A stretch of 32,611 bases of DNA, from positions 1 through 32,611 of IMG/VR virus record IMGVR_UViG_3300005613_000252. The stretch is one strand, 5' to 3'. The position numbers and the translations under genes were made by a program. Of the stretch, positions 11,982 to 24,465 are shown piece after piece. The notes below the pieces were generated by a model. That model did not search any database and was not told where the DNA came from. It saw nothing but the letters and a program-made list of their open reading frames with translations. The stretch is from a virus. Within the stretch, counting starts at the first letter, position 1; each line of letters opens with the position of its first letter.

Positions 11982-13685
11982 TTATCCTGGTAACTGAGGT
12001 GCAGTTTGAGGTTGAGCTTGAGCAGGTTGCTGAGAAACTCTATTCATACCACTAATTAACTTTTCAAAAGCAGGATCTGCAGCAGCATCTACAAGATGTT
12101 CAAATAAAGCTCCAATATTTTCAGGAGGAACTAATCCAATAAATTGCTGAAGAACCATCATAGCTTCAACTTTTCGTTCAGATTTACTAATTATTCTTTT
12201 TGTATGAAGCATAGTAGAATAACTGTAATCACCTTTAAGTTCTGCACCCGTAAAGGTAATCGGTCTACCTTCACTCATAATACCTCTAGGTTTAGTCCAA
12301 AAAGTAAATATGAAATTATTAAAACCTTTAATACAGTCACCATAAAGTTTTCTGACACCATCTATCCTTCTACGTTCTCTCTTATCAGAACCTGCAGCAA
12401 CATGAGAAACTTCTCTAGCCGTAGTTCGTTTAGAATCAAATTCACCAGTCTGATTCTGAGAATATCCAATAGCTTCCCGAGCTGCAGTTCTGTTATTATT
12501 ACTATCTAAAATATAATTATAAGTATTAGTTCCAGAAATAGTTTGAATAGCATCTCTAACATTCCTATTAGTGCCTTTACAAAAACCTACTGCACCAACA
12601 TCACCACCTATCCATTTCTCAGCTTCATCAGGCTCAATAATACTTTTATCTACCATATATCTCATAACATTAAGACGTCTAGTTTTAGTAGCTTGAATCG
12701 CAATATCATTCTCTTCTGCCTGATTCTGACCAAGATAATAAGCTTGAGGTGTAGTCCAAAAACTTCTAGTCCCTGGAATAAAACCTGTAGTTATATAAGG
12801 CATACCATAAAGCTGAAGAGCATCAACATCTTTCCGTAAAAACTTATCATAGTCAGGAGTTATAACAATTATCTCTCCAGTCTTACGATCTCTAATTTCC
12901 CAGATCTCATTAAAAATCACAAAAGTATTTTGAGTATGAGAAGAACTTTTAATGTAATCAGTACGTCTAACAGGAGGTCTCTGAACTCTCCTATCATTAT
13001 TCATATAAGCTTCCATAGAAATCTGAGGTTCAAGATTCTTAGTATTAGAATACTTAGGATCCTTCTTCAAATCACTATTAAGTCTGATAACTCTATGAGC
13101 ACACCATTGAGCGTCTTCTATATTCTTACAACCCCAAGGTACAACAAAGTCTTTAGGATTAACAGCTCTAGCCCACGGCATTCCAGGATGATAATCATTA
13201 TACTCAATCCGATTACCTTTTTTATCGAACTGAGTAAATGTTGAACCTGATCTTTCACCAACAACTATACCAGAATCATAGTCAGGATCCCATCCCCACT
13301 CACTATCATAACCTAACTTAATAATAGCTTTTCCTTTAAGATAATTATGAAGTTCAGCCTCTTCAACTGCTTGTTTCAAATTAGTCTTTCTAGTTAACCA
13401 ATTATCAACAGCTTCAAGCATTGGAACTTTATCGACAGCACTAGGAGTTTCAGCTTGAATAGTAAATTCAGGTTCAGGAACTATAAGACCTGATAATAGT
13501 GAATCACCCATACTAAAGATAAGATTAGCACCAACTGACGCATCACCATGAGGGCTATTGTAGAAATCTTGTTCAAGCTTATCCCAAGAATCTTCGTAAC
13601 CATAAATCCGACGGTACTCAAGACCATTCTCGATCTCTACCATCCAATCTTCAGGAGTCATTTTAGCCATGAGCAACTTGTCCAT
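11982..13685 (-). CDS. Portal protein
   Basis: 567 aa, directly after the large terminase gene, as usual for portals, and of podovirus-like size. It has the mixed helical/beta plan of portals, with WGWDPDYDSGIVVGERSGST in the wing region, an internal helical stretch near residues 400-450, and a Gln/Pro/Ala-rich C-terminus. It forms the dodecameric DNA channel at a capsid vertex. The first ATG (13685) overlaps the terminase gene by 23 bp; ATGs at 13670 and 13661 are alternatives, and no strong ribosome binding site decides between them. Confidence 0.75.
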   Translation of the reverse strand: MDKLLMAKMTPEDWMVEIENGLEYRRIYGYEDSWDKLEQDFYNSPHGDASVGANLIFSMGDSLLSGLIVPEPEFTIQAETPSAVDKVPMLEAVDNWLTRKTNLKQAVEEAELHNYLKGKAIIKLGYDSEWGWDPDYDSGIVVGERSGSTFTQFDKKGNRIEYNDYHPGMPWARAVNPKDFVVPWGCKNIEDAQWCAHRVIRLNSDLKKDPKYSNTKNLEPQISMEAYMNNDRRVQRPPVRRTDYIKSSSHTQNTFVIFNEIWEIRDRKTGEIIVITPDYDKFLRKDVDALQLYGMPYITTGFIPGTRSFWTTPQAYYLGQNQAEENDIAIQATKTRRLNVMRYMVDKSIIEPDEAEKWIGGDVGAVGFCKGTNRNVRDAIQTISGTNTYNYILDSNNNRTAAREAIGYSQNQTGEFDSKRTTAREVSHVAAGSDKRERRRIDGVRKLYGDCIKGFNNFIFTFWTKPRGIMSEGRPITFTGAELKGDYSYSTMLHTKRIISKSERKVEAMMVLQQFIGLVPPENIGALFEHLVDAAADPAFEKLISGMNRVSQQPAQAQPQTAPQLPG

Positions 13686-15246
13686 AATAAGATCTGATAT
13701 ACTTAGGATTCACAAGATCTTTCCTATTACCCATATCAAACCGATAGTTTTTCTTTTTATTATTTCTCTTCCTAATTTCATTTATAATGCTAAGACCTGA
13801 ATTAGGTTGAGCCATTTTCAACTGATATTCTTGAACTTCATGTTCGGCATTAACTTCTGCCCAAAAAGCTAACTGAAGTTGTAATGCATCAGGCAAATCA
13901 TCATGAGCACCTTTAGGAAATGCAAGCAATTCCCGTTCAAGATGATCATGTTCAACTTTTATAAAAATTCTATTATTACTAAAAAACGGTTGTAAAGCAC
14001 GAATACGATCTTCTTTAGAACCTTTAAGACCTTTAACTTGATTAACCATAAAGTTTCGACCAAGTTTATTCTGCTTTTGCTCTAACCAATAACATAAAGT
14101 CCGTTGATAAGATATAGCCTCAATAACAACTTCCATCGGACTGTATTTAGCTTCATGTCTAAAAATCTCATTGATCAATTCACCAGGAGTCATACGTTCT
14201 CTAGTATACTCAACAACATAGATATGACCATTCTTCGGATTGATTCCAGTTGTCATAACTACATTATAGTCAGGATCTTCAGACTCTTCCATATCAGAAG
14301 CAGCAGGGTCAACTGACGTACAATACAAAAGATTATTTGGAAGATCATTCCAATAGTTAATCCACTTCCGCTGAAATACTTGGTTCGAAGCACTTGTCGG
14401 ATTATTCATATAAAGAGCGGAAAACATATAAGGACCCAAGTCCCGCTCTAAATCCGCTAAAGTATTAGCATCAAACCTATCCCAAACTATATCACCTTTA
14501 GGATCTGGTTTACCATTAGTTTCACGAACAGCTCTAGTAATAACATTATAACTAGAATTATTCTCGATAACCCAAGATAACAAATCTCGTTCAGCCCAAC
14601 GTGTTCCAACTATAAGAATCTGAGATTCTCTCGGATGGATAAGTAGAGGATGAACAAGTCTATGCCATCCAATAGCTTTCTCAACTTCAGCCTTAGTTGG
14701 CTGCATCATAATACCAGTTAAAGCATCTTTAGATGGACTAACTGTATCATCCTCTATTACCAAATCATAGTGCCGAGATACAACAGCAGTACCAATACCA
14801 GCCGCTTCAAAAGTTCCTTCAGGAGCCGCTGACTTCCTATTAAGTGTCAAACACTCAGACTTCCAAACAGAATTGCGAGTTGGAAGAACTTCAGGATAAC
14901 AAGCTCGAAATAATTGATTCTGTTCTACTAACTGTCTTATATTGTAAAGTTTCTTACAAGCATTCCCGAAAGAGTTCTGCGTAATAAGAATTCTAATATT
15001 CGGATTATTAACAGCTCGCCAAAGAGGATAACCAATAGAAGCTATCGTAGATTTAAACCAGTCACGAGGAAGAATAACGACTTCCCTAGGATTCTCTTTA
15101 AACTTTTCAAGCTCATTACAAATCGGAAGATGAATTTCCGCAGTCAATAAATCAAAACCTAAGATAGCTCGACAGAAAAAGAATAAAGAATCCTTCCCTT
15201 TCTGAGAAATTTTATCAATAGTATCTTGTTTAAGTTCTAAAGCCAT
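13663..15246 (-). CDS. terL: Terminase large subunit
   Basis: 527 aa. ATPase domain: Walker-A-like LPRDWFKST at 59-67, Walker B with catalytic acid YDLVIEDD at 160-167, and the coupling-type motif GTRWAERDLL at about 214-223. Nuclease domain: first acidic residue in SVDPAASD (D313) and the distal DDLPDAL at 449-455. This is the complete packaging motor and headful/cos nuclease set. Start ATG is preceded only by a weak GAAG site, because its leader is the R2 repeat element (15253-15360), suggesting special control. Confidence 0.92.
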   Translation of the reverse strand: MALELKQDTIDKISQKGKDSLFFFCRAILGFDLLTAEIHLPICNELEKFKENPREVVILPRDWFKSTIASIGYPLWRAVNNPNIRILITQNSFGNACKKLYNIRQLVEQNQLFRACYPEVLPTRNSVWKSECLTLNRKSAAPEGTFEAAGIGTAVVSRHYDLVIEDDTVSPSKDALTGIMMQPTKAEVEKAIGWHRLVHPLLIHPRESQILIVGTRWAERDLLSWVIENNSSYNVITRAVRETNGKPDPKGDIVWDRFDANTLADLERDLGPYMFSALYMNNPTSASNQVFQRKWINYWNDLPNNLLYCTSVDPAASDMEESEDPDYNVVMTTGINPKNGHIYVVEYTRERMTPGELINEIFRHEAKYSPMEVVIEAISYQRTLCYWLEQKQNKLGRNFMVNQVKGLKGSKEDRIRALQPFFSNNRIFIKVEHDHLERELLAFPKGAHDDLPDALQLQLAFWAEVNAEHEVQEYQLKMAQPNSGLSIINEIRKRNNKKKNYRFDMGNRKDLVNPKYIRSYYGQVAHG

Positions 15247-15252
15247 AATTTA

Positions 15253-15360
15253 TTCACGCTTCAAGAGACGCTCATCGCCTCCGCTTCGCTTCGTCTTCCT
15301 TCGCTTCGATCGCCTCCGGCGACCTTATGGCGGTTTTACGTTGGAATGAACCGATTTTTA
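15253..15360 (-). repeat. GC-rich intergenic element, copy R2
   Basis: Read leftward: AAAAATCGG, then TTCATTCCAACGTAAAACCG, CC, and a GC-rich tail with GTCGCCGGAGGCGA (a 5-bp hairpin) and GACGAAGCGAAGCGGAGGCG. It forms almost the whole leader of the large terminase gene. It shares its head with copies R1, R3 and R4. Confidence 0.75.
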
Positions 15361-15388
15361 GAACATGATTCTGAGTTTAAATCCGAAA

Positions 15389-15466
15389 CAGTGTGATGAC
15401 CTCATTCCAACTTTGGCATAGACCGCCAGAACTATGTTATTCCAATAAAGTAAGGCCACCACACTG
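15389..15466 (-). ncRNA. Long strand-specific hairpin between terminase genes
   Basis: Arms 15389-15401 (CAGTGTGATGACC) and 15454-15466 (GGCCACCACACTG). In the leftward transcript all 13 positions pair (two G-U); in the rightward strand the same two positions would be A-C mismatches. Inner pairing includes CAUAG/CUAUG around a 10-base loop. Strand-specific pairing suggests a functional RNA in the terminase message. Role unknown. Confidence 0.5.
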
Positions 15467-15501
15467 AACTGTGAAAGAAGCAAAGACGAGAAGCTTTGAA
15501 T

Positions 15502-16023
15502 TTAGTTTTCAAACTCTACATCTTGTACTGTCGTTTCGGATTTTAAGTTTATTTTGGAATCTTGTGCCATTTCCAACTGTATTGTTCTTTCGATCCGAGC
15601 CAAGTCTTCTTGATCCAGAACGAATATTGTATTTTGAGTATTTTCCGTTTTTGTAAGTTTGGGATATCCAGCCCGATCAAGAATATCTGAAGCTGATTGA
15701 CGGGCGATAGAAGGAGAACATTCATCTGTCCCATCTACAAAACCTACAAGTTTATCAACAGCATTTTTAGCACCCTTCATTAATCTTTCATTTACATATT
15801 CCTGGTCTGAAACGGATTTAGCTAGGGAATCCTGAACTTGTGCATCCAATATAGCACGTTTTTGTGCAAGTTCATCCTGAAAAATCCGAGACTTTTTAAT
15901 GTCTTGAAGATTCTGTGTAGTGCATTTCATGGCTTTAGCTATATCTACCAGTTTCCAGCCCGCAAGTAGGTAGTCCATTATGCGAAAATGGCGAGAAGAT
16001 AAAGTTTGAAGTTCATAAGACAT
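15502..16023 (-). CDS. terS: Terminase small subunit
   Basis: 173 aa from the chosen start. N-terminal helix-turn-helix at about 20-50 (VDIAKAMKCTTQNLQDIKKS), a central helical oligomerisation region, and the phrase ARQSASDILDRAGYPK common in phage small terminases and related DNA-binding proteins. It lies directly before terL. I chose ATG 16023 over 16035, because 16035 lies inside a 17-bp palindrome, whereas 16023 has the same spacing from the palindrome as the start at 31568, with near-identical sequence (GATGAAATTCTTAATG versus GGTGAAATTCTTATG). It recognises the packaging start site. Confidence 0.8.
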   Translation of the reverse strand: MSYELQTLSSRHFRIMDYLLAGWKLVDIAKAMKCTTQNLQDIKKSRIFQDELAQKRAILDAQVQDSLAKSVSDQEYVNERLMKGAKNAVDKLVGFVDGTDECSPSIARQSASDILDRAGYPKLTKTENTQNTIFVLDQEDLARIERTIQLEMAQDSKINLKSETTVQDVEFEN

Positions 16024-16028
16024 TAAGA

Positions 16029-16045
16029 ATTTCATCCCGTGAAAT
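16029..16045 (-). promoter_or_regulatory. 17-bp palindrome, site B, at the small terminase start
   Basis: ATTTCATCCCGTGAAAT on the + strand. It lies between the leftward promoter (16091-16117) and the small terminase gene; its downstream arm occupies the ribosome-binding position. Close match to site F (31547-31563), including flanking bases. Confidence 0.6.
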
Positions 16046-16090
16046 ACTGTGATAAATTTAAGAACGAAAAAAGAAATCCGTTACATATAT

Positions 16091-16117
16091 AATATACGTT
16101 GAAAGTATAAATTACAA
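16091..16117 (-). promoter_or_regulatory. Leftward promoter of the terminase/virion operon
   Basis: Leftward: TTGTAA, a 15-base spacer ending TTTCAACG, then TATATTA, and ATGTAA three bases later. The same layout, with 28 of 37 positions fixed, occurs before the gene at 22382. The short spacer and conserved CAACG core suggest recognition by a modified or phage-encoded sigma factor. Predicted start of transcription is near 16084, leaving a leader that contains palindrome site B. Confidence 0.65.
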
Positions 16118-16147
16118 GGAAAAATTTGAAATTATTTAAAAATTTTT

Positions 16148-16234
16148 ATGTCGGGAATTCGTGAAATTCTAAATGTTCGAAAGAACAATTCTGATCCGGC
16201 TGAAGATTGTGAACTAACAAAGGATTGTAAGTAA
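16148..16234 (+). CDS. Possible 28-aa peptide
   Basis: ATG to TAA, beginning MSGIREILNV and ending DCELTKDCK. No good ribosome binding site is present (AAGGA lies about 25 bases upstream), so translation is doubtful. It is directly followed by a fragment of the GC-rich repeat, as the gene at 17461 is followed by R3. Listed as a weak candidate. Confidence 0.2.
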   Translation: MSGIREILNVRKNNSDPAEDCELTKDCK

Positions 16235-16254
16235 AATCCGTGAGCGTAGCGAAA
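16231..16254 (+). repeat. Fragment of the GC-rich intergenic element, R5
   Basis: AAAATCCGTGA followed directly by GCGTAGCGAAAG: the head and tail words of R3/R4 with the middle missing. Probably a deleted or decayed copy. Confidence 0.35.
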
Positions 16255-16330
16255 GTTGATATTTTGTATCAATAATGTAGGTTGTAATTTGCTAGAAAAA
16301 ATTTAGGAGAGAGTAGTACTACCCACCCAC

Positions 16331-16350
16331 CCCCCTAGTTGGGGGTTTTT
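16331..16350 (+). terminator. Rightward terminator-like hairpin in the control region
   Basis: CCCCC, loop TAGTT, GGGGG, then TTTTT. A short but pure G-C stem with an ideal T-tract. It would stop any rightward transcript begun in 16.05-16.32 kb before the early promoter. The 12-mer ACCCACCCCCCT at 16325-16336 recurs at 17274-17285. Confidence 0.55.
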
Positions 16351-16539
16351 GGTCTGACAAATGTTTAATAGTTTAAAAACCATCTACATCCGGTATGTTC
16401 TACAACTATCTTACACAACAATACATAGTATAATTGGATTGTTAGATCAATTATGGAAATCCGAATCGGTTTTATTTATATTGTTTTAATATCGCCTAAT
16501 AATTATTTTTGTTTTATCTCAAATTTTGTTAAATATTAT

Positions 16540-16567
16540 TTGACATTTGGCCGATATAGTGTATATT
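16540..16567 (+). promoter_or_regulatory. Sigma70-type early rightward promoter
   Basis: Perfect -35 TTGACA at 16540-16545; -10 TATATT at 16562-16567 (16-bp spacer) or TATTAT at 16564-16569 (18-bp spacer). It lies about 55 bases before the first right-arm gene. It is the best host-type promoter in the window and the likely start of early expression. Confidence 0.75.
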
Positions 16568-16624
16568 ATAATAAATGGAACGTTGTGTTTCATAACTAAT
16601 CATTATTTTGCAGAAAGGTTTATC

Positions 16625-17044
16625 ATGTATTACACTATTACAAACGCAATCGGAACGGAAATAACTGTTGACGACAAAACTTTTGTTTGTGGCAATCTGT
16701 ACGCCTCTAAAACCAAAGCACCAAAGGATGCAGACTATTTACTTGCATTTAGTAAATCCGAAAATCCGGTTGATGATAAGGTTTGGCGGTTTGACGGGAA
16801 AGCGGATATTGATGCGGAACTGTTTGTAGAAGAAGTATCGGAAGAAGACCGTGATATTTTGGCTTGGAAATCAGAACGAATCAACATTCAAGCCAAAATC
16901 AGGCCGTCGAAAGATTCTAAGAAAGCAATCGCTGCTGAAAAACGTCAGACTGCTTTTGCAGAACTCCAGCGGCAGCAAACATCCGGCGAAATTACACCTG
17001 AAGAATTCTTCACCCGCACTCAGCAACTCCTTGCTGGAATGTAA
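16625..17044 (+). CDS. First right-arm protein, 139 aa, unknown
   Basis: The ATG at 16625 is chosen because CAGAAAGG lies seven bases upstream; an in-frame upstream ATG at 16547 would lie inside the promoter. The N-terminal 80 residues look like a small alpha/beta domain (YYTITNAIGTEITVDDKTFV); the C-terminal 50 are charged and helical (KKAIAAEKRQTAFAELQRQQ). GC content is higher than in its neighbours, and the gene is single, with its own sigma70-type promoter and strong terminator. That suggests strong early expression, perhaps for host takeover. Family not recognised. Confidence 0.7.
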   Translation: MYYTITNAIGTEITVDDKTFVCGNLYASKTKAPKDADYLLAFSKSENPVDDKVWRFDGKADIDAELFVEEVSEEDRDILAWKSERINIQAKIRPSKDSKKAIAAEKRQTAFAELQRQQTSGEITPEEFFTRTQQLLAGM

Positions 17045-17059
17045 ACTGCATTACAACCA

Positions 17060-17096
17060 CCGACTGTCGTCTTAACGGGTGACAGTCGGCTTCGTT
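17060..17096 (+). terminator. Rho-independent terminator
   Basis: Perfect 9-bp stem CCGACTGTC / GACAGTCGG with a 12-base loop, followed by CTTCGTTCTTTC. It lies 16 bases after the first right-arm gene and isolates it from the rest of the arm. Confidence 0.75.
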
Positions 17097-17460
17097 CTTT
17101 CACAATTACAGAATTTCACCGAAATTGTCCCCCAACAGAGACTCTCAGGGGGGTGGGTTATCCGTGGGTGGGAGGTAGTTAGTTAGTATATAATAAAAAA
17201 ATATATATATAAAATATCCACAACAGAAACATAGGCGATAAACCCGACACACAATCACACTATCTCCCGAACAACCCACCCCCCTACAAGTCTAACCCGA
17301 ACAACAATTTCCATGAATTTCTATCTCGACCTACGGTCGTAAATAAAGTAACCGATTTAACTAACATAACATTAAGAATAAATAATAACACTAATGAAAT
17401 ATAAATCACAATTTCATCGGGTGAAATACTAATTGTGTAAACACAAGAAAGGAAACTCTA
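17097..17460. other. Non-coding region: inverted repeat, AT tract, G-rich tract
   Basis: No ORF of note. It holds a half palindrome (17113-17125), a perfect 13-bp inverted repeat AGGGGGGTGGGTT (17147-17159) / AACCCACCCCCCT (17273-17285), a G-quadruplex-type tract at 17148-17173, and an uninterrupted A/T stretch around 17190-17216 followed by ATATCCACA, one mismatch from a DnaA box. Palindrome site C precedes the next gene. It looks like a replication origin or regulatory region; this is inference. Confidence 0.45.
17411..17427 (+). promoter_or_regulatory. 17-bp palindrome, site C
   Basis: ATTTCATCGGGTGAAAT, a complete consensus match, 33 bases before the gene at 17461. A small inverted repeat TTGTGTAAACACAA follows at 17434-17447, directly before the ribosome binding site. 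Confidence 0.6.
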
Positions 17461-17667
17461 ATGAAAAATTATATTGGCTACTTCACTAATAAACCTAACA
17501 TATGTGCTAGAATAAAAGCAAAGACTATTAGAAATGCTGCAAGACAATTTGCAGACGGACATGAGATAAAAGCAATTAGAATATTAAATATTGAAGATAC
17601 AGTCGCAACATTTAAAACTTGGAAAAGAGGAACTTTTAAAATTGAATTTGCTACAGATTTAAACTAA
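17461..17667 (+). CDS. Hypothetical small basic protein, 68 aa
   Basis: Basic protein with a helix ARIKAKTIRNAARQFADGHE and a beta-like C-terminus. ATG follows AGAAAGG. First gene of the tiny-gene cluster, behind palindrome site C. Followed by repeat R3. Not recognised; the size and position are typical of early host-interaction proteins. Confidence 0.6.
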   Translation: MKNYIGYFTNKPNICARIKAKTIRNAARQFADGHEIKAIRILNIEDTVATFKTWKRGTFKIEFATDLN

Positions 17668-17682
17668 CAAATGTTCACACTC

Positions 17683-17776
17683 AAAATCCGTGACATTCCA
17701 ACGTCAAACCGCCCAGTCGCCCGTAATGAGTGAAAGGCGAAGCGAAGCGGAGACGAACGAATGGAGGATAAGCGAC
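17683..17776 (+). repeat. GC-rich intergenic element, copy R3
   Basis: Head AAAATCCG, TGACATTCCAACGTCAAACC, GCC; tail with CCGTAATGAGTG, GGCGAAGCGAAGCGGAG and CGAACGAATGGAGG. TCGCC/GGCGA can pair around the tail's middle. It separates the gene at 17461 from the 29-codon membrane-peptide ORF. Confidence 0.75.
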
Positions 17777-17813
17777 AAATGTGAATACTAATTAAACTAA
17801 GAAAGGAAAAGAC

Positions 17814-17903
17814 ATAAAAATATTTCTAATCATAATTACTCACATAGTTCTATTCTACATCGGATATCAAACTGGAGTTAAATTAGTTGAAACAATGTTT
17901 TAA
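17814..17903 (+). CDS. 29-aa membrane peptide with apparent ATA start
   Basis: An open frame with a hydrophobic run IFLIIITHIVLFYIGYQTG and a polar end KLVETMF. AAGAAAGG is placed as in neighbouring genes, but the codon where ATG is expected is ATA; no ATG, GTG or TTG fits upstream before an in-frame stop. Its stop is directly followed by the AAAGAAAGG site of the next gene, so it fills its slot in the operon. Either a rare AUA start is used or the gene has lost its start by mutation or sequencing error. Confidence 0.45.
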   Translation: MKIFLIIITHIVLFYIGYQTGVKLVETMF

Positions 17904-17917
17904 AGAAAGGATAAATT

Positions 17918-18142
17918 ATGTTATACTTATTAAAAGATAGAAAAAGTAATGGCTATGATGTTATGGATAGCTGTATAGTTAGATCTACAGATCCTAAAAC
18001 TGCAAGAAAATTAGCTAACAAAGTTTGTAAAGATGAAGGAGAAATATGGACAGATTGTCAAAGAGTTTCTTGCAGAAGTATTTCTACTAATGCAATGCAA
18101 AATCCTAGTAAAGTTATATTAACATCTATTAGAAACGGTTAA
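17918..18142 (+). CDS. Hypothetical protein, 74 aa
   Basis: Small protein with three cysteines and a helical middle (DPKTARKLANKVCKDEGEIW). ATG follows AGAAAGG. Part of the tightly packed early cluster; no family recognised. Position and size suggest an early accessory protein. Confidence 0.6.
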   Translation: MLYLLKDRKSNGYDVMDSCIVRSTDPKTARKLANKVCKDEGEIWTDCQRVSCRSISTNAMQNPSKVILTSIRNG

Positions 18143-18154
18143 AGGAGAAACAAA

Positions 18155-18316
18155 ATGGCTAGTGAAAGTTTAAACTATTGGAAGGGCAGACTAATAACTG
18201 CAAGAAATAGATATAATTTAGTCTGTAGCAAACCAAACAGAGAAGAACTACTAATGTGTAAAAGAGTAGTCAAACGAATTGAAACTACATTATTTGAAAG
18301 GAAGAAACTAAAATGA
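18155..18316 (+). CDS. Hypothetical 53-aa protein
   Basis: ORF from ATG after AAAGGAG to TGA, beginning MASESLNYWKGRLITARNRY and ending ERKKLK. Very basic and helical. Its stop overlaps the lipoprotein gene's start as ATGA, strong support that both are translated. No known family. Confidence 0.6.
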   Translation: MASESLNYWKGRLITARNRYNLVCSKPNREELLMCKRVVKRIETTLFERKKLK

Positions 18317-18552
18317 GAAAATTGCTATCTAATGACTGGATTCAGCTCGGGCTGATTCTAACAATCTTATTCATCATGTCATTCTTACAAGGTTGTGAGT
18401 ATCAAACTGTAACTCACAGGAGAGTTGCACTGTTTTATAAGAGTGAGAATAACGGAGATGTTTCTAAGTCTCGAGACATTGGATCTTTCACTCACAAGAG
18501 GTCTGGAAATAAGACAGACGAAGCTCTAAGAAAGTTCTTCAAAACGAAGTAA
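18313..18552 (+). CDS. Small lipoprotein, 79 aa
   Basis: N-terminal signal: charged start, hydrophobic segment (residues 10-24) and lipobox LQGC with the lipidated Cys at 28. The mature part is about 50 residues, polar and basic. It is predicted to be processed by signal peptidase II and anchored in a membrane. It could act in superinfection exclusion or as an outer-membrane spanin-like subunit, but no partner inner-membrane spanin is seen and the early position favours an envelope-modifying role. Coupled to the upstream ORF by ATGA; followed by a hairpin. Confidence 0.65.
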   Translation: MRKLLSNDWIQLGLILTILFIMSFLQGCEYQTVTHRRVALFYKSENNGDVSKSRDIGSFTHKRSGNKTDEALRKFFKTK

Positions 18553-18561
18553 ATATTTATT

Positions 18562-18589
18562 CAGAGACTATAATGGATGATAGTCTCTG
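18562..18589 (+). terminator. Hairpin after the lipoprotein gene
   Basis: Perfect 10-bp stem CAGAGACTAT / ATAGTCTCTG with an 8-base loop, nine bases after the stop. It is not followed by a T-run, so it may be a weak terminator, an RNA-stability hairpin or a processing site. Confidence 0.45.
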
Positions 18590-18628
18590 TGTAACTATTT
18601 AATAAAGTTTAAAGAAAGGAAAAAAGAA

Positions 18629-18820
18629 ATGACTAAAAGAGAAGCATCAATCGTATCAGCATTTACAGGTATAATGCTTGGAGATTTTAGTGATCTACAC
18701 AAATATGTCGAAGAAATAATGGAAAGACCTGTATTTATTCATGAGATGGGTGATAGAAGAATAGCGTCTGAAATTAAAGAAAATGCTAGAAATGGCTTTA
18801 CGAATTTAATAGTAGAATAA
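18629..18820 (+). CDS. Conserved small phage protein, 63 aa
   Basis: Contains AFTGIMLGDFSDLHKYVEEI then RPVFIHEMGD. This phrase (T/A-G-I-x-x-G-D-F-x-D-x-x-x-Y-V, then RPVFTHE) is familiar from small phage proteins of unknown function found in many siphoviruses and podoviruses. ATG follows AAAGAAAGG. Role unknown. Confidence 0.65.
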   Translation: MTKREASIVSAFTGIMLGDFSDLHKYVEEIMERPVFIHEMGDRRIASEIKENARNGFTNLIVE

Positions 18821-18835
18821 CAGAAAGGTGAAATT

Positions 18836-19036
18836 ATGCCGAGAGAGCAAAGACCTAAAGAAGTGCAAGATTTAGAACTAATGCACAAAAATTCCAATAT
18901 AGAACAAGATTTAAAGAATACTTCATACTTTCCAGATCAACTACAAGCTTTTATAATGGATAGAGATATTCATGGTTATAATCTTGTCAAAAGTCTAGTA
19001 TATCTAACACTGTCAAAATACTTTAATGGAGAATGA
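18836..19036 (+). CDS. Hypothetical protein, 66 aa
   Basis: Soluble, helical and charged; contains FPDQLQAFIMDRDIHGYNLV. ATG follows AGAAAGG. Fifteen bases after the preceding gene and two before the next start. Not recognised. Confidence 0.55.
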   Translation: MPREQRPKEVQDLELMHKNSNIEQDLKNTSYFPDQLQAFIMDRDIHGYNLVKSLVYLTLSKYFNGE

Positions 19037-19038
19037 AA

Positions 19039-19212
19039 ATGTCTAAAACTAACCCGAATAAAGTTGCGGCTAGAAATATCCTAACTGCAACTTTCAAATC
19101 AATTCTAGAAGTTGTAGATGCTTGTGATCTTGAAGATTGTATAGATTACAGCCGAGCTAAAGCTTTAGAAAATGAGTTTAAGAAAGATGTTCCAACTATA
19201 TTTAAAAAATAA
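19039..19212 (+). CDS. Hypothetical 57-aa protein
   Basis: ORF from ATG after TGGAG to TAA, beginning MSKTNPNKVAARNILTATFK. Helical, slightly acidic in the middle (VVDACDLEDCID). It starts two bases after the previous stop, fitting the operon. No recognised family. Confidence 0.55.
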   Translation: MSKTNPNKVAARNILTATFKSILEVVDACDLEDCIDYSRAKALENEFKKDVPTIFKK

Positions 19213-19226
19213 GAAAGGCTTCAAAG

Positions 19227-19265
19227 ATGAAAGAATTAAATAAAATAAGAAAGGCTTTAAAATGA
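19227..19265 (+). CDS. 12-aa mini-ORF, possible leader peptide
   Basis: MKELNKIRKALK then TGA, overlapping the next ATG as ATGA. The 13-mer AATAAGAAAGGCT before its start (19208-19220) is repeated exactly 36 bp later before the next gene (19244-19256). It may be a leader peptide for translational coupling or a by-product of a duplicated ribosome binding unit. Confidence 0.35.
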   Translation: MKELNKIRKALK

Positions 19266-19585
19266 CAAAATTTAGTAAAGGTGTTTGGGTATTCAGGAAA
19301 CATTGCGAAGATAGTCAATGGTTTGGAAATATTATATGCAATTATGGCAAAGTTAATAATATAAACACTATTAGAACTATCACATGTCATACTACATACG
19401 GTACTCCAGAAGAAAATGAAGCTAATGCTGTACTTACATCTTCTGCTTATGACTTATATTTTACTTTAGATAAAGCTTTAAAATACATTAAATCTATAGA
19501 AAAAAATCAAGATGTCTATCCTTATGAAGTAATTGTACCAGCTGAAAAATTGTTAACTAAAATTAAGAAAGGTAAACTATCATGA
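19262..19585 (+). CDS. Hypothetical protein, 107 aa
   Basis: Mixed alpha/beta protein with GVWVFRKHCEDSQWFGNIIC near the N-terminus and a basic C-terminus (LTKIKKGKLS). Its last codons include AAGAAAGG, the ribosome binding site of the next gene, and the stop overlaps the next ATG as ATGA. No recognised family. Confidence 0.6.
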   Translation: MTKFSKGVWVFRKHCEDSQWFGNIICNYGKVNNINTIRTITCHTTYGTPEENEANAVLTSSAYDLYFTLDKALKYIKSIEKNQDVYPYEVIVPAEKLLTKIKKGKLS

Positions 19586-19884
19586 CACAAGAAGAAAAAC
19601 AACTCGAACTGTTAGCTCTTAAAGAGAGCTTTGAATCTGCAACTATAACAGCGGAACAGTATACTTCTGGTATAGTTCACATTATGAATCTGCCAGAAAA
19701 TGTTCCTTTCTCAGCTACTAGAAACCTCGGGCTGAAAGTGGATGAAAAAACTAAACAAATATTGGTAGGAAAATGTAAGATACCTTTTAATTCTGAAGAT
19801 AAAAGTAGAAAACTTCGTGTTGCTACTTTTTTGAAAGATGATTCTGAAGAAGAAAGAAAGCAGAGGAAATTTTATGAAAACTAA
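19582..19884 (+). CDS. Hypothetical protein, 100 aa
   Basis: Charged, N-terminally helical (EEKQLELLALKESFESATIT), C-terminus very acidic then basic. It overlaps the start of the peptide deformylase gene by 11 bp, suggesting co-translation. No family recognised. Confidence 0.6.
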   Translation: MTQEEKQLELLALKESFESATITAEQYTSGIVHIMNLPENVPFSATRNLGLKVDEKTKQILVGKCKIPFNSEDKSRKLRVATFLKDDSEEERKQRKFYEN

Positions 19885-20383
19885 ATCAAAACGTAGAAAA
19901 AGCCGTACACCAAGAATTTTAACTGGAAACCATCCATCTTTAAAAACTGTTTGTAAACCTGTTACCGATTTTGAAATAGCAACTAAAGTTATTCGAGATC
20001 TAAAATACTGTCTTGATAAAAGAAAGCGTGGTGTAGGACTATCTGCTAATCAGATCGGATCTGATCTTAGAATTATTTTAGTCCAAACAAAACGTGCATC
20101 TAACTATAATGTTCCTGGATGGCCTGCAGAATTTACAGCTATGATAAATCCAGTTATAACTGATGCTTCTGTAACTACTAATATTGCAACTGAAGGTTGT
20201 TTATCGTATCCTGGAATATATAAATCTATTAAAAGATCTTCTAGAATAAATGTGAAATACAATACCATTGATGGCAGTGAGCATTACGTTATGTTCTCAA
20301 ATTTTGAAGCTCGAATCATTCAGCATGAAATCGATCACTTAAACGGGCTATGTAGAATTTCACCCGATGAAAAAGTAAATTGA
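19874..20383 (+). CDS. def: Peptide deformylase
   Basis: 169 aa from the ATG at 19874, which follows AGAGGAAA; an upstream in-frame ATG (19838) would add 12 residues but lies inside the previous gene. All three motifs are present: GVGLSANQ (53-60), EGCLS (107-111; metal ligand C109) and HEIDH (151-155; two His ligands and catalytic Glu). It removes the N-formyl group from new proteins, using Fe2+ or Zn2+. Length is normal, with a basic N-terminal extension of about 15 residues. Phage-borne deformylases are known mainly from aquatic phages. Confidence 0.93.
   Translation: MKTKSKRRKSRTPRILTGNHPSLKTVCKPVTDFEIATKVIRDLKYCLDKRKRGVGLSANQIGSDLRIILVQTKRASNYNVPGWPAEFTAMINPVITDASVTTNIATEGCLSYPGIYKSIKRSSRINVKYNTIDGSEHYVMFSNFEARIIQHEIDHLNGLCRISPDEKVN
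20356..20372 (+). promoter_or_regulatory. 17-bp palindrome, site D
   Basis: AATTTCACCCGATGAAAAA region; one of the more diverged copies. It lies in the last codons of the deformylase gene, about 22 bases before the next gene's start, so the sequence also encodes ISPDEK. Confidence 0.4.
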
Positions 20384-20393
20384 AAGGAAACTT

Positions 20394-20651
20394 ATGACTC
20401 TAAACGATCAACAGCTAACAACTTTAACTAAAAATATTGTAAAATATTGCATAATTCCGCAACTACCTGACACGTTTTCTTGCCCAAGCTATGAGAATAT
20501 ATTCAAAGCTTTTGAATGTTTACAAGATAGTTGGATGAGCTATGAAAAATGGTTAGATCAAGATGTAAACACGTGTGAACAAGTGGATAAAATTTATTCT
20601 GATATTAAAGATAATATTATTGAAAGTTTAAAGGAGATTTATAATATCTAA
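20394..20651 (+). CDS. Hypothetical acidic protein, 85 aa
   Basis: Acidic helical protein (ENIFKAFECLQDSWMSYEKW). ATG follows GAAAGG, ten bases after the deformylase gene. Followed by repeat R4. Not recognised. Confidence 0.6.
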   Translation: MTLNDQQLTTLTKNIVKYCIIPQLPDTFSCPSYENIFKAFECLQDSWMSYEKWLDQDVNTCEQVDKIYSDIKDNIIESLKEIYNI

Positions 20652-20692
20652 CCGATTTAACTTAATAATTTATTTCTTAAAAACACGGTAGT

Positions 20693-20790
20693 AAAATCCG
20701 ATCATTCCAACGTAAAAGCCGCCCGAAGAAACGCCTAGCGTTTCATAGTGAGGGAAGCTTAAGGCCGTTAGGCCGTAGCGACGAACGTGC
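20693..20790 (+). repeat. GC-rich intergenic element, copy R4
   Basis: Head AAAATCCG, ATCATTCCAACGTAAAAGCC, GCCC; tail with the perfect hairpin AAACGCCTAGCGTTT, CATAGTGAGGG, and GGCCGTTAGGCCGTAGCGAC. It fills the gap between the genes at 20394 and 20824. The word TAACCGATTTAACT (20649-20662), also present at 17349-17362, lies just upstream. Confidence 0.75.
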
Positions 20791-20823
20791 GTAAGCAATA
20801 AGAAATAAAAGAAAGGTTTAAAA

Positions 20824-21291
20824 ATGACAACTGAACAAAAACTACTAACCATCAAAGGTGAAGAACTGAGCAGGTTGCTGGGTGAGGTGTTGATCGGCGA
20901 AATTAAGCAAAAAACAATAACGCTGAATTGCCCTTGCGGGTGGAAGCCAAGGCCAAAACTGAAACATGGGACGTGGAAATACAAGTGTCCGTATGTTAAT
21001 TGTGGTGTGGTATACTTATTGACTGAAGATATGTTTATTAAACGTGCCAACCACATTACACTTATCTGGCCTGAGGCAATGAAGTGGCGTGACTGGGCTG
21101 TTGGGGAATGTGGTTGGGAAGAATTTTGTAAGAATTTATTTAAAGTGGCTCATAGTCTAGGAGTATTTAAACCTAAACATTCTAAGACTATTTACGAGTG
21201 GATTACAATTGAAGCTCAGCCAGAGCACTACCTCATAACTGCTGCATTATGTAAATTGAAAGGAGAGCAAAATTGTCACCTAAAGAAATAG
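20824..21291 (+). CDS. Zinc-ribbon-like protein, 155 aa
   Basis: Residues 36-60 contain C36-x-C38 and C55-x4-C60 (NCPCGW, then KCPYVNCG), suggesting one structural zinc site. The N-terminal 90 residues are encoded by visibly more GC-rich DNA than the rest of the arm, and the gene sits directly behind repeat R4. The C-terminal 60 residues are helical. Nucleic-acid or protein binding is possible; no catalytic motif seen. Confidence 0.6.
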   Translation: MTTEQKLLTIKGEELSRLLGEVLIGEIKQKTITLNCPCGWKPRPKLKHGTWKYKCPYVNCGVVYLLTEDMFIKRANHITLIWPEAMKWRDWAVGECGWEEFCKNLFKVAHSLGVFKPKHSKTIYEWITIEAQPEHYLITAALCKLKGEQNCHLKK

Positions 21292-21731
21292 CAACTTTAA
21301 AATTACTAAAAAACAATTATAAAATATTTCTACCTCTTAACAGTCCGTCTGATGAACTAGTAATATTTTATAAAGATAAACCTCAACTTTGTTTGGTAAA
21401 ACTTACTCGTGAAACCAAAAGAGGCCCAAACTTACTTTACGGAAATATTATTGATTTTTCTATCTATAATTATGTGATAGCTGTTGAAAAAGAAACTAAA
21501 AGAACTTGGCTAATACCTATAGCTGATATAGATCTAGATAAAAAATCTATGATGTTATCTGCTTATGCTAATCACTATTCTTTAGTTCCTCAAAATTTAT
21601 CTAAAACAGTTGTAGAAAAGAAAAGAGAAATAACAGTAGCTAAAGTTACAGAAAAAGTTGTGAAAGAAAATAAAGTAAAAACTCGAATTGAAACTAATGA
21701 AGATATTTTAAACTTATTATCGAAAGGTTAA
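21273..21731 (+). CDS. Possible PD-(D/E)XK-fold protein, degenerate, TTG start
   Basis: 152 aa, TTG start after AAAGGAG, overlapping the upstream gene by 19 bp. Residues 8-85 follow the order of the small PDDEXK_5-type domain: a lysine-rich helix, DELVIFYKD (candidate acid D27), then QLCLVKLT, and a late strand with YNYVIAVEKETKRTWLIPIA. The usual E/Q before x-K is Leu here (LVK), so nuclease activity is doubtful. The C-terminal 45 residues are charged. The last codons (SKG) contain the next gene's ribosome binding site. Fold assignment by eye, low to moderate. Confidence 0.4.
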   Translation: MSPKEIATLKLLKNNYKIFLPLNSPSDELVIFYKDKPQLCLVKLTRETKRGPNLLYGNIIDFSIYNYVIAVEKETKRTWLIPIADIDLDKKSMMLSAYANHYSLVPQNLSKTVVEKKREITVAKVTEKVVKENKVKTRIETNEDILNLLSKG

Positions 21732-21733
21732 CT

Positions 21734-22000
21734 ATGTTCTCAGGTCCAGGAGCTCATCCGTGTTCAGATATTGGTAGATTACAATCTGATATAAATAGAA
21801 TTGATAGAGATTTAAGTAGAAAGGTTGATGCATATGAAATGTCTACGATCAATAGCAATGTGGCTAGTATGGAATGTGCCATTGAAGAAATTCGCTCCTT
21901 ATATGATGGGTTTTGCTTTAAACTCGAAACCTTTGAAACAAATCAAGAAGAAACAAATCAAGAAATAATAGAATTAAAAGAATTATTATCGAAAGGTTAA
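21734..22000 (+). CDS. Coiled-coil protein, 88 aa
   Basis: After a short Gly/Pro N-terminus, residues 14-85 form heptad-like repeats (RLQSDINRIDRDLSRKVDAY; ETNQEETNQEIIELKELL). Probably oligomeric. Ends LLSKG, like the gene before it, because both end in the ribosome binding site of the next gene. Function unknown. Confidence 0.6.
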   Translation: MFSGPGAHPCSDIGRLQSDINRIDRDLSRKVDAYEMSTINSNVASMECAIEEIRSLYDGFCFKLETFETNQEETNQEIIELKELLSKG

Positions 22001-22004
22001 AAAG

Positions 22005-22232
22005 ATGGCTAAACTAATTGAAGATCAAACATTAAATAGTGCAATTATTAAAGCAACACAAGATTTAACTGCAGTGCATTTAAGAAATATTAAATCAGCA
22101 TTAAGCGGTGTATATCCATTCTTATCAAATCCTAGTAAAGCAAAATTAAAAAGACATTTTAAATTGTTGAATGAATCTGCTGAAGCTCTTGCAAATGAAG
22201 CTATAGATCAGTGCAAGAAACGGTTTCAATAA
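22005..22232 (+). CDS. Hypothetical protein, 75 aa
   Basis: Basic, helical (TAVHLRNIKSALSGVYPFLS), ending KKRFQ. ATG follows CGAAAGG. Last gene before the isolated unit at 22.4 kb. Not recognised. Confidence 0.6.
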   Translation: MAKLIEDQTLNSAIIKATQDLTAVHLRNIKSALSGVYPFLSNPSKAKLKRHFKLLNESAEALANEAIDQCKKRFQ

Positions 22233-22310
22233 TTAGAATTTCATCTAAAATGTCTATAATTGTGGACAAAATTTTAATAAATAAATTTTAAAAAAATCCT
22301 GAAATTTATT

Positions 22311-22337
22311 TTGTAAAAATTCTTTTCAACGTATATT
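22311..22337 (+). promoter_or_regulatory. TTTCAACG-type promoter, rightward copy
   Basis: TTGTAA at 22311-22316, a 15-base spacer ending TTTCAACG, TATATTA, and ATGTAA three bases later: same layout as the terminase promoter (16091-16117). It lies about 45 bases before the gene at 22382. Confidence 0.65.
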
Positions 22338-22381
22338 AACCATGTAAACAAATTATTTTATTTAACGAAAGGCAGAAAGTT

Positions 22382-22753: not shown

Positions 22754-22797
22754 GCCGGGACTCAGACTGGCAACAGTGTGTGAGTCCTGGCTTCTCT
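22754..22797 (+). terminator. Terminator with GCAA tetraloop
   Basis: An 11-bp outer stem GCCGGGACTCA / TGAGTCCTGGC (one G-U) surrounds an inner ACTG-GCAA-CAGT hairpin with a GNRA-type loop, followed by TTCTCTT. It closes the isolated unit at 22382-22741. Confidence 0.7.
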
Positions 22798-22814
22798 TAT
22801 GCTCAAATTTAAGA

Positions 22815-23062: not shown

Positions 23063-23566
23063 ATGCTAACCTATAAAGAAGTTGAAAGACCTTGTGCATT
23101 TTGGGCTCATAAATATAAATCTAATAAATTTGAATTTAATGAACTCTTTAATGTAGCTTACTTAACCGCCATTAAACAAAAAACAGTTTTAACTTTACAA
23201 AAATCAATCCGAGGTGCGTTAATTAGATTCATGCAAAAGAGCCAAAGATTTACTTCTCAATGCAAACCTTTAGAAAATGATAATTTAAACTCAGGAGAAG
23301 AAAATAATCTAGCACTTTGTTCTGAAGAAAATAATTTAAAATCTTTGATAAATTCTGAGGAACTTGTAGCAATAATAGAAGAAGCTAACATTCAACAAAG
23401 TCAGGAATTTCTTGATATTTTGAACTTTATTTTTGTTGAAGATCTAACTCAAACAGAGATTGCACAAAAGTTTAATGTAACACCTCAAGCAATTTCGTAC
23501 CGCTACAACTCAATAATAAATTCTTTAAAAACTGTGAGTAAAAGGAGAATGCTGTGCCAAAAGTAG
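23063..23566 (+). CDS. Phage sigma-factor-like protein
   Basis: 167 aa. Residues 24-64 (FNELFNVAYLTAIKQ, then IRGALIRFMQK) resemble sigma70-family region 2. Residues 126-157 (VEDLTQTEIAQKFNVTPQAI) form a clear region-4-type helix-turn-helix. The linker is short and acidic. It would direct host RNA polymerase to phage promoters, and the TTTCAACG-type promoters are candidate targets. It overlaps the nuclease gene by 13 bp. Other DNA-binding regulators share this HTH, so the sigma call is moderate. Confidence 0.6.
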   Translation: MLTYKEVERPCAFWAHKYKSNKFEFNELFNVAYLTAIKQKTVLTLQKSIRGALIRFMQKSQRFTSQCKPLENDNLNSGEENNLALCSEENNLKSLINSEELVAIIEEANIQQSQEFLDILNFIFVEDLTQTEIAQKFNVTPQAISYRYNSIINSLKTVSKRRMLCQK

Positions 23567-24465
23567 ATAAAAAATTTAATATAAAGTATGTAGACCCAAG
23601 TGGTCTAAACAAATTTAATCGCTGTCCGTTTTCATATTATCTTAGTCGTCTTGAAGGTTACCGTGACCCAAAACGTAACACCATAGCTCTAGACTATGGA
23701 ACTTGTATGCACTCAGCTCTTCCTCACTGCTTTGATGGTGATACTGAAGAAGCTAAAGAAATATTCTGTAATAATTGGCAAGACTTCGGGCATGAAGGTC
23801 AAGATGATAAACGGAATATAGATAGAGCTTATGCTTCTTTAGAAGCTTTTGCTGAAAAACACAATCCTTTAGTTTGTCCGTTTGAAGTTGTAGAATTTGA
23901 ATCTCCTGACATTGTTCATAAAGGTAATATTGATAAAGGTGAGACACCATATCTTATAAACATAAACGGTTCTTTGCCTCTTGCCGGTAGAATTGATATG
24001 GTTGTAAGAATGAAAGGTTCTGAACAACTTTGGGCTTTGGACTTTAAAACTTCTGCTGAAATTAGTCCAAGATTCTGGAACGGATTTCATAGATCAACTC
24101 AAGCTCTAGCTTATACTTTGGCTCTATCAGTTCTTAGCGGTGAAAATTGTCAGGGACTTGTAGTTGAAGCTATACGAACTTCAAAGACTAATGCTGAAAG
24201 TGCAATGGGTTTGAACTTTATTCAGGCTCATAACTTAGAGACATTTGTAGAGTTTGCAAATAAGACTTCAGATGAAATAATGAAGTGTAATGAAGAACAA
24301 AATTGGCCTCAAAAGTGTTCAGGTTGTGCAACTTATTCTATGTTTGGTCAGCCTGGATATTATTGTGACTATAAGAAAGTTTGTGATAGTTGTGATTGGA
24401 AATCTGTGTTGAAGTATTTTAGTAAAGAAGAACCTTTCCATCCTTTTGAAATGAAGGAGATATAA
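23554..24465 (+). CDS. Cas4/RecB-type PD-(D/E)XK exonuclease
   Basis: 303 aa, GTG start after AAAGGAG. Family pattern: SGLNKFNRCPFSYYLSRL (15-32) with conserved C24; GTCMHSAL with H53; GRIDMVV with D148; ALDFKTS with D163 and K165; QALAY (183-187). A C-terminal cluster C255, C258, C271, C277, C280 together with C24 could hold an Fe-S cluster, as in Cas4 and AddB. It would resect DNA ends for recombination. Next to a Sak4-like ATPase and an SSB-like gene, so a recombination module is likely, not CRISPR. Confidence 0.82.
   Translation: MPKVDKKFNIKYVDPSGLNKFNRCPFSYYLSRLEGYRDPKRNTIALDYGTCMHSALPHCFDGDTEEAKEIFCNNWQDFGHEGQDDKRNIDRAYASLEAFAEKHNPLVCPFEVVEFESPDIVHKGNIDKGETPYLININGSLPLAGRIDMVVRMKGSEQLWALDFKTSAEISPRFWNGFHRSTQALAYTLALSVLSGENCQGLVVEAIRTSKTNAESAMGLNFIQAHNLETFVEFANKTSDEIMKCNEEQNWPQKCSGCATYSMFGQPGYYCDYKKVCDSCDWKSVLKYFSKEEPFHPFEMKEI

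Follow-up and report, generated by a model that had tools for sequence, protein, structure and literature searches.

What reads the two closely similar promoter sequences that stand ahead of a leftward and a rightward operon in one uncultured virus of bacteria? The virus is IMG/VR record IMGVR_UViG_3300005613_000252, all 32,611 bases of which were analyzed (this whole stretch is called the window here). Its packaging and structural genes are directed leftward (1-16 kb), and the other arm is directed rightward (16.6-32.6 kb) and encodes, among other products, a sigma-like protein, a nuclease, a Sak4-like annealing protein, a ParB-methyltransferase, and a family A DNA polymerase. An initial annotation had claimed that the two arms share a promoter that does not fit ordinary sigma-70, and had pointed to the sigma-like gene at 23063. 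The two sites and the genes associated with them are as follows.

16081..16117, minus strand: left member of the promoter pair, ahead of the small-terminase operon (TTGTAA at 16117-16112, core TTTCAACGTATATTA at 16104-16090, ATGTAA at 16086-16081).
22311..22347, plus strand: right member of the promoter pair (TTGTAA at 22311-22316, core TTTCAACGTATATTA at 22324-22338, ATGTAA at 22342-22347), ending 35 bases ahead of the gene 22382 start codon.
15502..16035, minus strand: small terminase gene, the first of the leftward operon (PHROG small terminase, E 4e-7); its true start is probably the ATG at 16023-16021, judged against the related contig L061.
22382..22741, plus strand: gene 22382, which adjoins the right promoter and encodes a putative product without assigned function, kept in the relatives G001, G002, G004, L082, L103, and L109.
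23063..23566, plus strand: extracytoplasmic function (ECF)-like sigma factor gene (sigma-2, residues 1-61; sigma-4, residues 97-163), with syntenic homologues in six relatives.
23554..24465, plus strand: PD-(D/E)XK nuclease gene, next in the conserved cluster.

Our overall reading, to which we give a probability of roughly 0.6, is that the two sites form a second promoter class owned by the phage, which would be read by the host polymerase together with the phage ECF-like sigma factor and would be partly self-activating. It draws on the paired sites, on their recurring positions in several lineages, on an early promoter of canonical form, seen in the window and in a few relatives, and on the predicted two-domain fold of the sigma factor. 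The promoters themselves are well supported; we infer that they are transcription starts read by the 23063 sigma, as well as the temporal order and the self-activation.

The paired sites are present exactly as first described: the left site (16117-16081, minus strand) and the right site (22311-22347, plus strand) are equal at 28 of 37 positions, the exact 15-mer included. When the left site was used as the query in the proposed motif search, here run over the whole window, the right site was the best other match (28/37, the next best being 24/37), and no third comparable copy was found in the window. An inverted match of 28/37 anywhere in the window is by itself unremarkable, i.e., about one is expected per Markov shuffle. 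If only the upstream regions of both sites are considered, such a likeness is rare: of 1000 shuffles, 0-1 reach 28/37 and 3-4 contain a 15-base run. When all upstream regions of the window are compared with one another, the pair scores 21.4, which none of 300 shuffled sets equalled. In a two-block test the window pair does not stand out (P 0.2), its shared block being continuous, but it does in the ungapped tests; an ungapped 36-base comparison misses the pairs of G002 and G004, whose common parts are two short blocks.

The relatives in which these latter pairs are found were gathered by means of an alignment of one more gene.

13663..15246, minus strand: large terminase gene, which served as the query for relatives.

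This alignment led to distant relatives at 67 loci in viral contigs, and the full records were examined for G001, G002, and G004; single-sequence queries with the window nuclease, gene 22382, and the polymerase yielded no right-arm relatives. The genome collection gave only two terminase matches, both remote, in metagenome-assembled genome contigs labelled Clostridia and Thermoplasmata. Among cultured phages there was no match to the G002 sigma or to the G002 homologue of gene 22382, and terminase identity was at most 27% among the best matches listed. An exact 15-mer search across IMG/VR was rejected as a route to relatives, as its 58 contigs, near the chance number, included none meaningfully related.

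When upstream regions were inspected, two short blocks were seen to be common to the small-terminase promoter and one promoter of the right arm in each of G002 and G004. Their consensus, GTCTRTA-N16-MCTTATAY, has five exact matches in 862 kb of 72 related contigs, namely both G002 sites, both G004 sites, and the L071 terminase site, and the L072 terminase site matches with one mismatch; matches occur at the N16 spacing only, where the shuffled set has zero. With the left promoter region as the query, the best two-block match genome-wide is the right-arm site in G002, G004, and L109, and in L082 this site is second. Against shuffled queries, over the 1.7 kb before the gene-22382 homologue, the right-arm partner has P values of 0.003 (G002), 0.007 (G004), 0.033 (L109), and 0.023 (L082). 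In all four relatives the partner is directed rightward and is followed, 1.1-1.5 kb downstream, by the gene-22382 homologue, and every right-arm partner is a short distance ahead of a start codon. Thus in four relatives the small-terminase promoter has one recognizable partner with lineage-specific lettering, and the claim of a promoter common to the packaging operon on the left and an operon on the right is supported by its recurrence in this phage group, the partner being upstream of the sigma-gene cluster. A motif common to the later operons and distinct from sigma-70 was found; the departure from sigma-70 lettering is clear in G002 and G004 and less clear in the window.

The letters that had been taken as defining do not extend beyond the window. 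In the close relatives, which are three contigs at 80-91% on the large terminase, the terminase promoter at the orthologous position is CTGTAATTTCTCCCTTTTAACCGTATATTATAAC in L061 and CTGTCAAACCTCCTTACAATGTATATATATATTATAATG in L063; a TGTAA-like element and TATAT are kept in both, CAACG is in neither, and the L061 spacing is longer than that of the window. In the closest relative, the one at 91% on the terminase, the terminase promoter is CTGTAATTTCTCCCTTTTAACCGTATATTA, which is two bases longer and is without CAACG, and other lineages have GTCTRTA-N16-MCTTATAY or CAATAAT...GCCTTATA. Please note that the close-relative contigs stop short of the right-arm site, so that the comparison covers the left promoter alone. 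The proposed 15-base spacer and fixed CAACG therefore cannot be kept as general features, and the spacing is ambiguous in the window itself: TTGTAA-15-TATATT is equally readable as TTGTAA-17-TATTAT on the left and TTGTAA-17-TATTAA on the right. Its companion claim, that the sites are not ordinary sigma-70 promoters, stands only in part, as with a 17-base spacing either window site can also be taken for a weak sigma-70 promoter.

The sigma-like gene keeps its place in the gene order. A sigma-like open reading frame (ORF) comes after the gene-22382 homologue in every one of the seven genomes that cover the region; six of these (window, G001, G002, G004, L103, and L109) have it between this homologue and the PD-(D/E)XK nuclease, and in L082 it lies beyond the gene-22382 homologue. 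The homologues are 17-26% identical to the window protein. G002 and G004 sigmas are 60% identical to each other and have one promoter consensus; identity of the window sigma to these two is about 25%, and the window promoter differs from theirs. TIGR02937 (sigma70-ECF) gives a full-length match to the window protein (E 1e-6) and matches the G002, G004, L103, and L109 homologues at E 4e-8 to 1e-10; it matches every member somewhat, all under the curated cut-off of 42.9 bits (28.3 for the window, 41.2 for the G004 homologue), and for this reason we term the window protein ECF-like only. The best-matching part in Pfam is sigma-70 region 4, the cut-off of which is passed in G002, G004, L082, and L109, and G001 is the weakest member in profile comparisons. 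In the structure model of the window sigma (mean predicted local distance difference test score 71, sigma-2 part 83-90), residues 1-61 align with the sigma-2 domain of sigma factors of known structure (best Z 8.7, root-mean-square deviation 1.7), and residues ~97-163 align with sigma-4 domains (highest Z 8.3); a Z near 8 can arise by chance for helical domains, but nearly all rows listed are sigma factors or sigma-4-like. Foldseek matches are mostly sigma factors too, none reaching E 0.001. Profile and predicted fold give the product of gene 23063 sigma-2 and sigma-4 domains, in agreement with the sigma-like label of the initial annotation. A hairpin, GGGACTCA...TGAGTCC, is located at 22756-22800 (plus strand), 3' of gene 22382 and ahead of the series of genes that leads to the sigma gene; it may weaken readthrough to the latter, and G002 carries a comparable hairpin at the corresponding place.

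The proposed order of events starts from one further site.

16540..16569, plus strand: early rightward promoter of the ordinary sigma-70 type, before gene 16625 (TTGACA, then TATATT at spacer 16 or TATTAT at spacer 18).

Early rightward genes would be transcribed from this host sigma-70 promoter, and readthrough from it would supply the small ECF-like sigma of 23063. With this sigma bound, the host core RNA polymerase would then recognize both phage promoters, the left one driving the packaging and structural operon and the right one gene 22382, the sigma gene, and the replication genes. Since the right promoter would drive the sigma gene, the sigma would boost its own supply in a positive loop. 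The distant relatives keep the layout with other lettering, and it therefore looks like a virus-owned switch for later genes. A bolder version, which we put forward tentatively and hold at somewhat less than even odds, is that the uncultured phage group runs its whole later programme from just two promoters, one self-activating, and that the sigma/promoter pairs have co-diverged until mutually unreadable while staying at near-fixed genome positions.

Several observations weigh against the phage-owned promoter class. The pairs of G002 and G004 were noticed by eye first, and the formal tests came later. The gene boundary of the right site differs, being directly before gene 22382 in the window and 1.1-1.5 kb earlier in the relatives. 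G001 has a sigma-like gene, yet no promoter pair was detected in it; its right-arm TTCAACATATATCA, a candidate resembling the window core, was rejected as it has no left-arm partner and may belong to a palindrome. In L103 a pair seen by eye, TTKACA-N15-GCCTYAWT, was also rejected, as the shuffle test selects otherwise (P 0.86). The window sigma scores under the curated cut-offs. The right arm opens with a near-consensus sigma-70 promoter in L061, L109, and G001 as in the window, but a strong one was not found at the right-arm start of G002 or G004, nor a consensus-like early promoter at the expected place in G002, G004, L063, L082, or L103. The possible 17-base sigma-70 spacing in the window likewise counts here, and it is the starting point of the most probable alternative.

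In that alternative, which we consider unlikely, the sites are ordinary, weakish promoters of the host main sigma that are alike through a recent local copy or a shared operator. The left site indeed has 9 of 12 sigma-70 positions at 17-base spacing, the -10 stretch GTATATTAT is also within the canonical early promoter at 16540, and such matches are plentiful in this AT-rich DNA (46 observed vs 36 expected). However, the right site fails the sigma-70 scan rule that demands T as the last -10 position, the identical block falls mainly in the would-be spacer, and the same two operons are paired in other lineages through -10 boxes of the CCTTATAT type, a poor fit to sigma-70; two sites per genome and an adjoining sigma gene would also be left unaccounted for. 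Less probable again is that a host alternative sigma, or sigma-70 with a phage activator, reads the sites and that the phage sigma-like protein has another role, e.g., as a sigma appropriator. In its favour, the protein has a short sigma-2 part and low curated scores, and gene 22382 just downstream could encode a cofactor; against this, both promoter-reading domains and the fixed synteny are retained, and the lettering of the promoter shifts where the sigma shifts. An after-the-fact coincidence is very improbable: 28/37 inverted matches do occur about once per shuffled window, but the upstream-only score is above all 300 shuffles and a pair stands at the expected positions in four other genomes.

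Around the early promoter and between the arms, a few more sequences were seen. GCCGATAT is located at 16548-16557 (plus strand), in or near the early promoter region, and is also present in L061 (GCCGATAC), L063, and G001 (by eye); it may serve the early control region as an operator. Between the arms, C/G runs, ACCCACCCCCCTAG...GGGGGT, at 16325-16350 and 17140-17290 are terminator-like, and L061, L063, and a number of distant relatives have a comparable C-rich stretch ahead of the small-terminase promoter. Three repeated or structured elements were also recorded.

15254-15501, minus strand (L061 1317-1562, L062 597-846, L063 2752-2985): structured RNA, or packaging-site, element between the terminase genes.
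1231-1250 and 15329-15348, minus strand, 17694-17713 and 20703-20722, plus strand: repeat of the element's 3' part, CATTCCAACGNNAAAMCGCC followed by a G+C-rich GAGCGAAGCGGA-like part.
4310, 16029, 17411, 20357, 22815, and 31547, both arms: palindrome ATTTCAYNNNRTGAAAW, six exact copies of 17 bases each, at gene junctions.

The inter-terminase element has three helices, including a pseudoknot of GTTGGAATG with CATTCCAAC; 97% of cells are paired, and 7 of the 27 pairs show compensatory two-sided changes among only four sequences, above all shuffles and slides. It has no Rfam match, and in Rfam as a whole tRNA alone reached the gathering threshold, with sub-threshold matches at chance level. The repeat has four copies against zero expected, and similar-looking G+C-rich repeats are seen in G002. 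The exact complement GTTGGAATG has one separate copy only, at 15411-15403 (minus strand), and its pairing in trans with other repeat copies is conceivable. As for the palindrome, one copy is just ahead of the small-terminase start and is kept at that place in L061-L063. Genome-specific palindromes, mostly at gene junctions in the window and several relatives, are CATATTC-N7-GAATATG in G002 (8 sites), CATATCC-N7-GGATATG in G004 (6), and TATTCATTNAATGAATA in G001 (6); those of L109 are weaker, and those of L103 are not clearly above shuffles. They resemble mycobacteriophage stoperators, i.e., dispersed repressor sites (PMC9283540).

Phage sigmas with matched promoters have so far come from few cultured phages, and here an uncultured group appears to have one. 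The differing sigma/promoter versions in related lineages are a natural series for testing joint change and a potential source of small sigma factors that read their own promoters only. For the window, the sites indicate which genes are likely turned on after the early phase.

Phage-made specificity factors redirect host polymerase to later genes in Bacillus phage SPO1 and coliphage T4, although these phages are larger and have several factors and different promoters. Cellular ECF sigmas usually have an anti-sigma partner; the window protein is like members of the TIGR02937 superfamily in having sigma-2 and sigma-4 in ~150-170 residues, and unlike them in staying under the curated cut-off. Closer to our case is Salmonella phage 7-11, whose sigma SaPh711_gp47 guides host core polymerase to two-part late promoters, eight in number with the consensus GTAAtg-16-aCTA, as demonstrated in vitro, its early promoters being sigma-70 (PMC8948821). 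A phage sigma and two-part later promoters are features in common, here predicted from sequence, and a predicted sigma-70 early promoter is a further one for the window, L061, L109, and G001; the present phages differ in having two sites per genome rather than eight and other lettering, and no close cultured relative was found. In phiEco32, gp36 is the sigma for middle and late genes and works with host core polymerase, its promoters having the single element tAATGTAtA (PMC8948821). The predicted use of a phage sigma with host core for later genes is alike, whereas two promoter elements are seen here instead of one, and region 4, to which gp36 has no homology (PMC8948821), is the part that Pfam matches best. 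The 7-11 and phiEco32 sigmas are themselves only 15% identical, with differing motifs and similar promoter positions, and both phages have sigma-70 early promoters (PMC8948821). Differing lettering at similar positions is seen again in the present phages. The scheme is thus known already from these two phages, and the present phages would be a new family of it.

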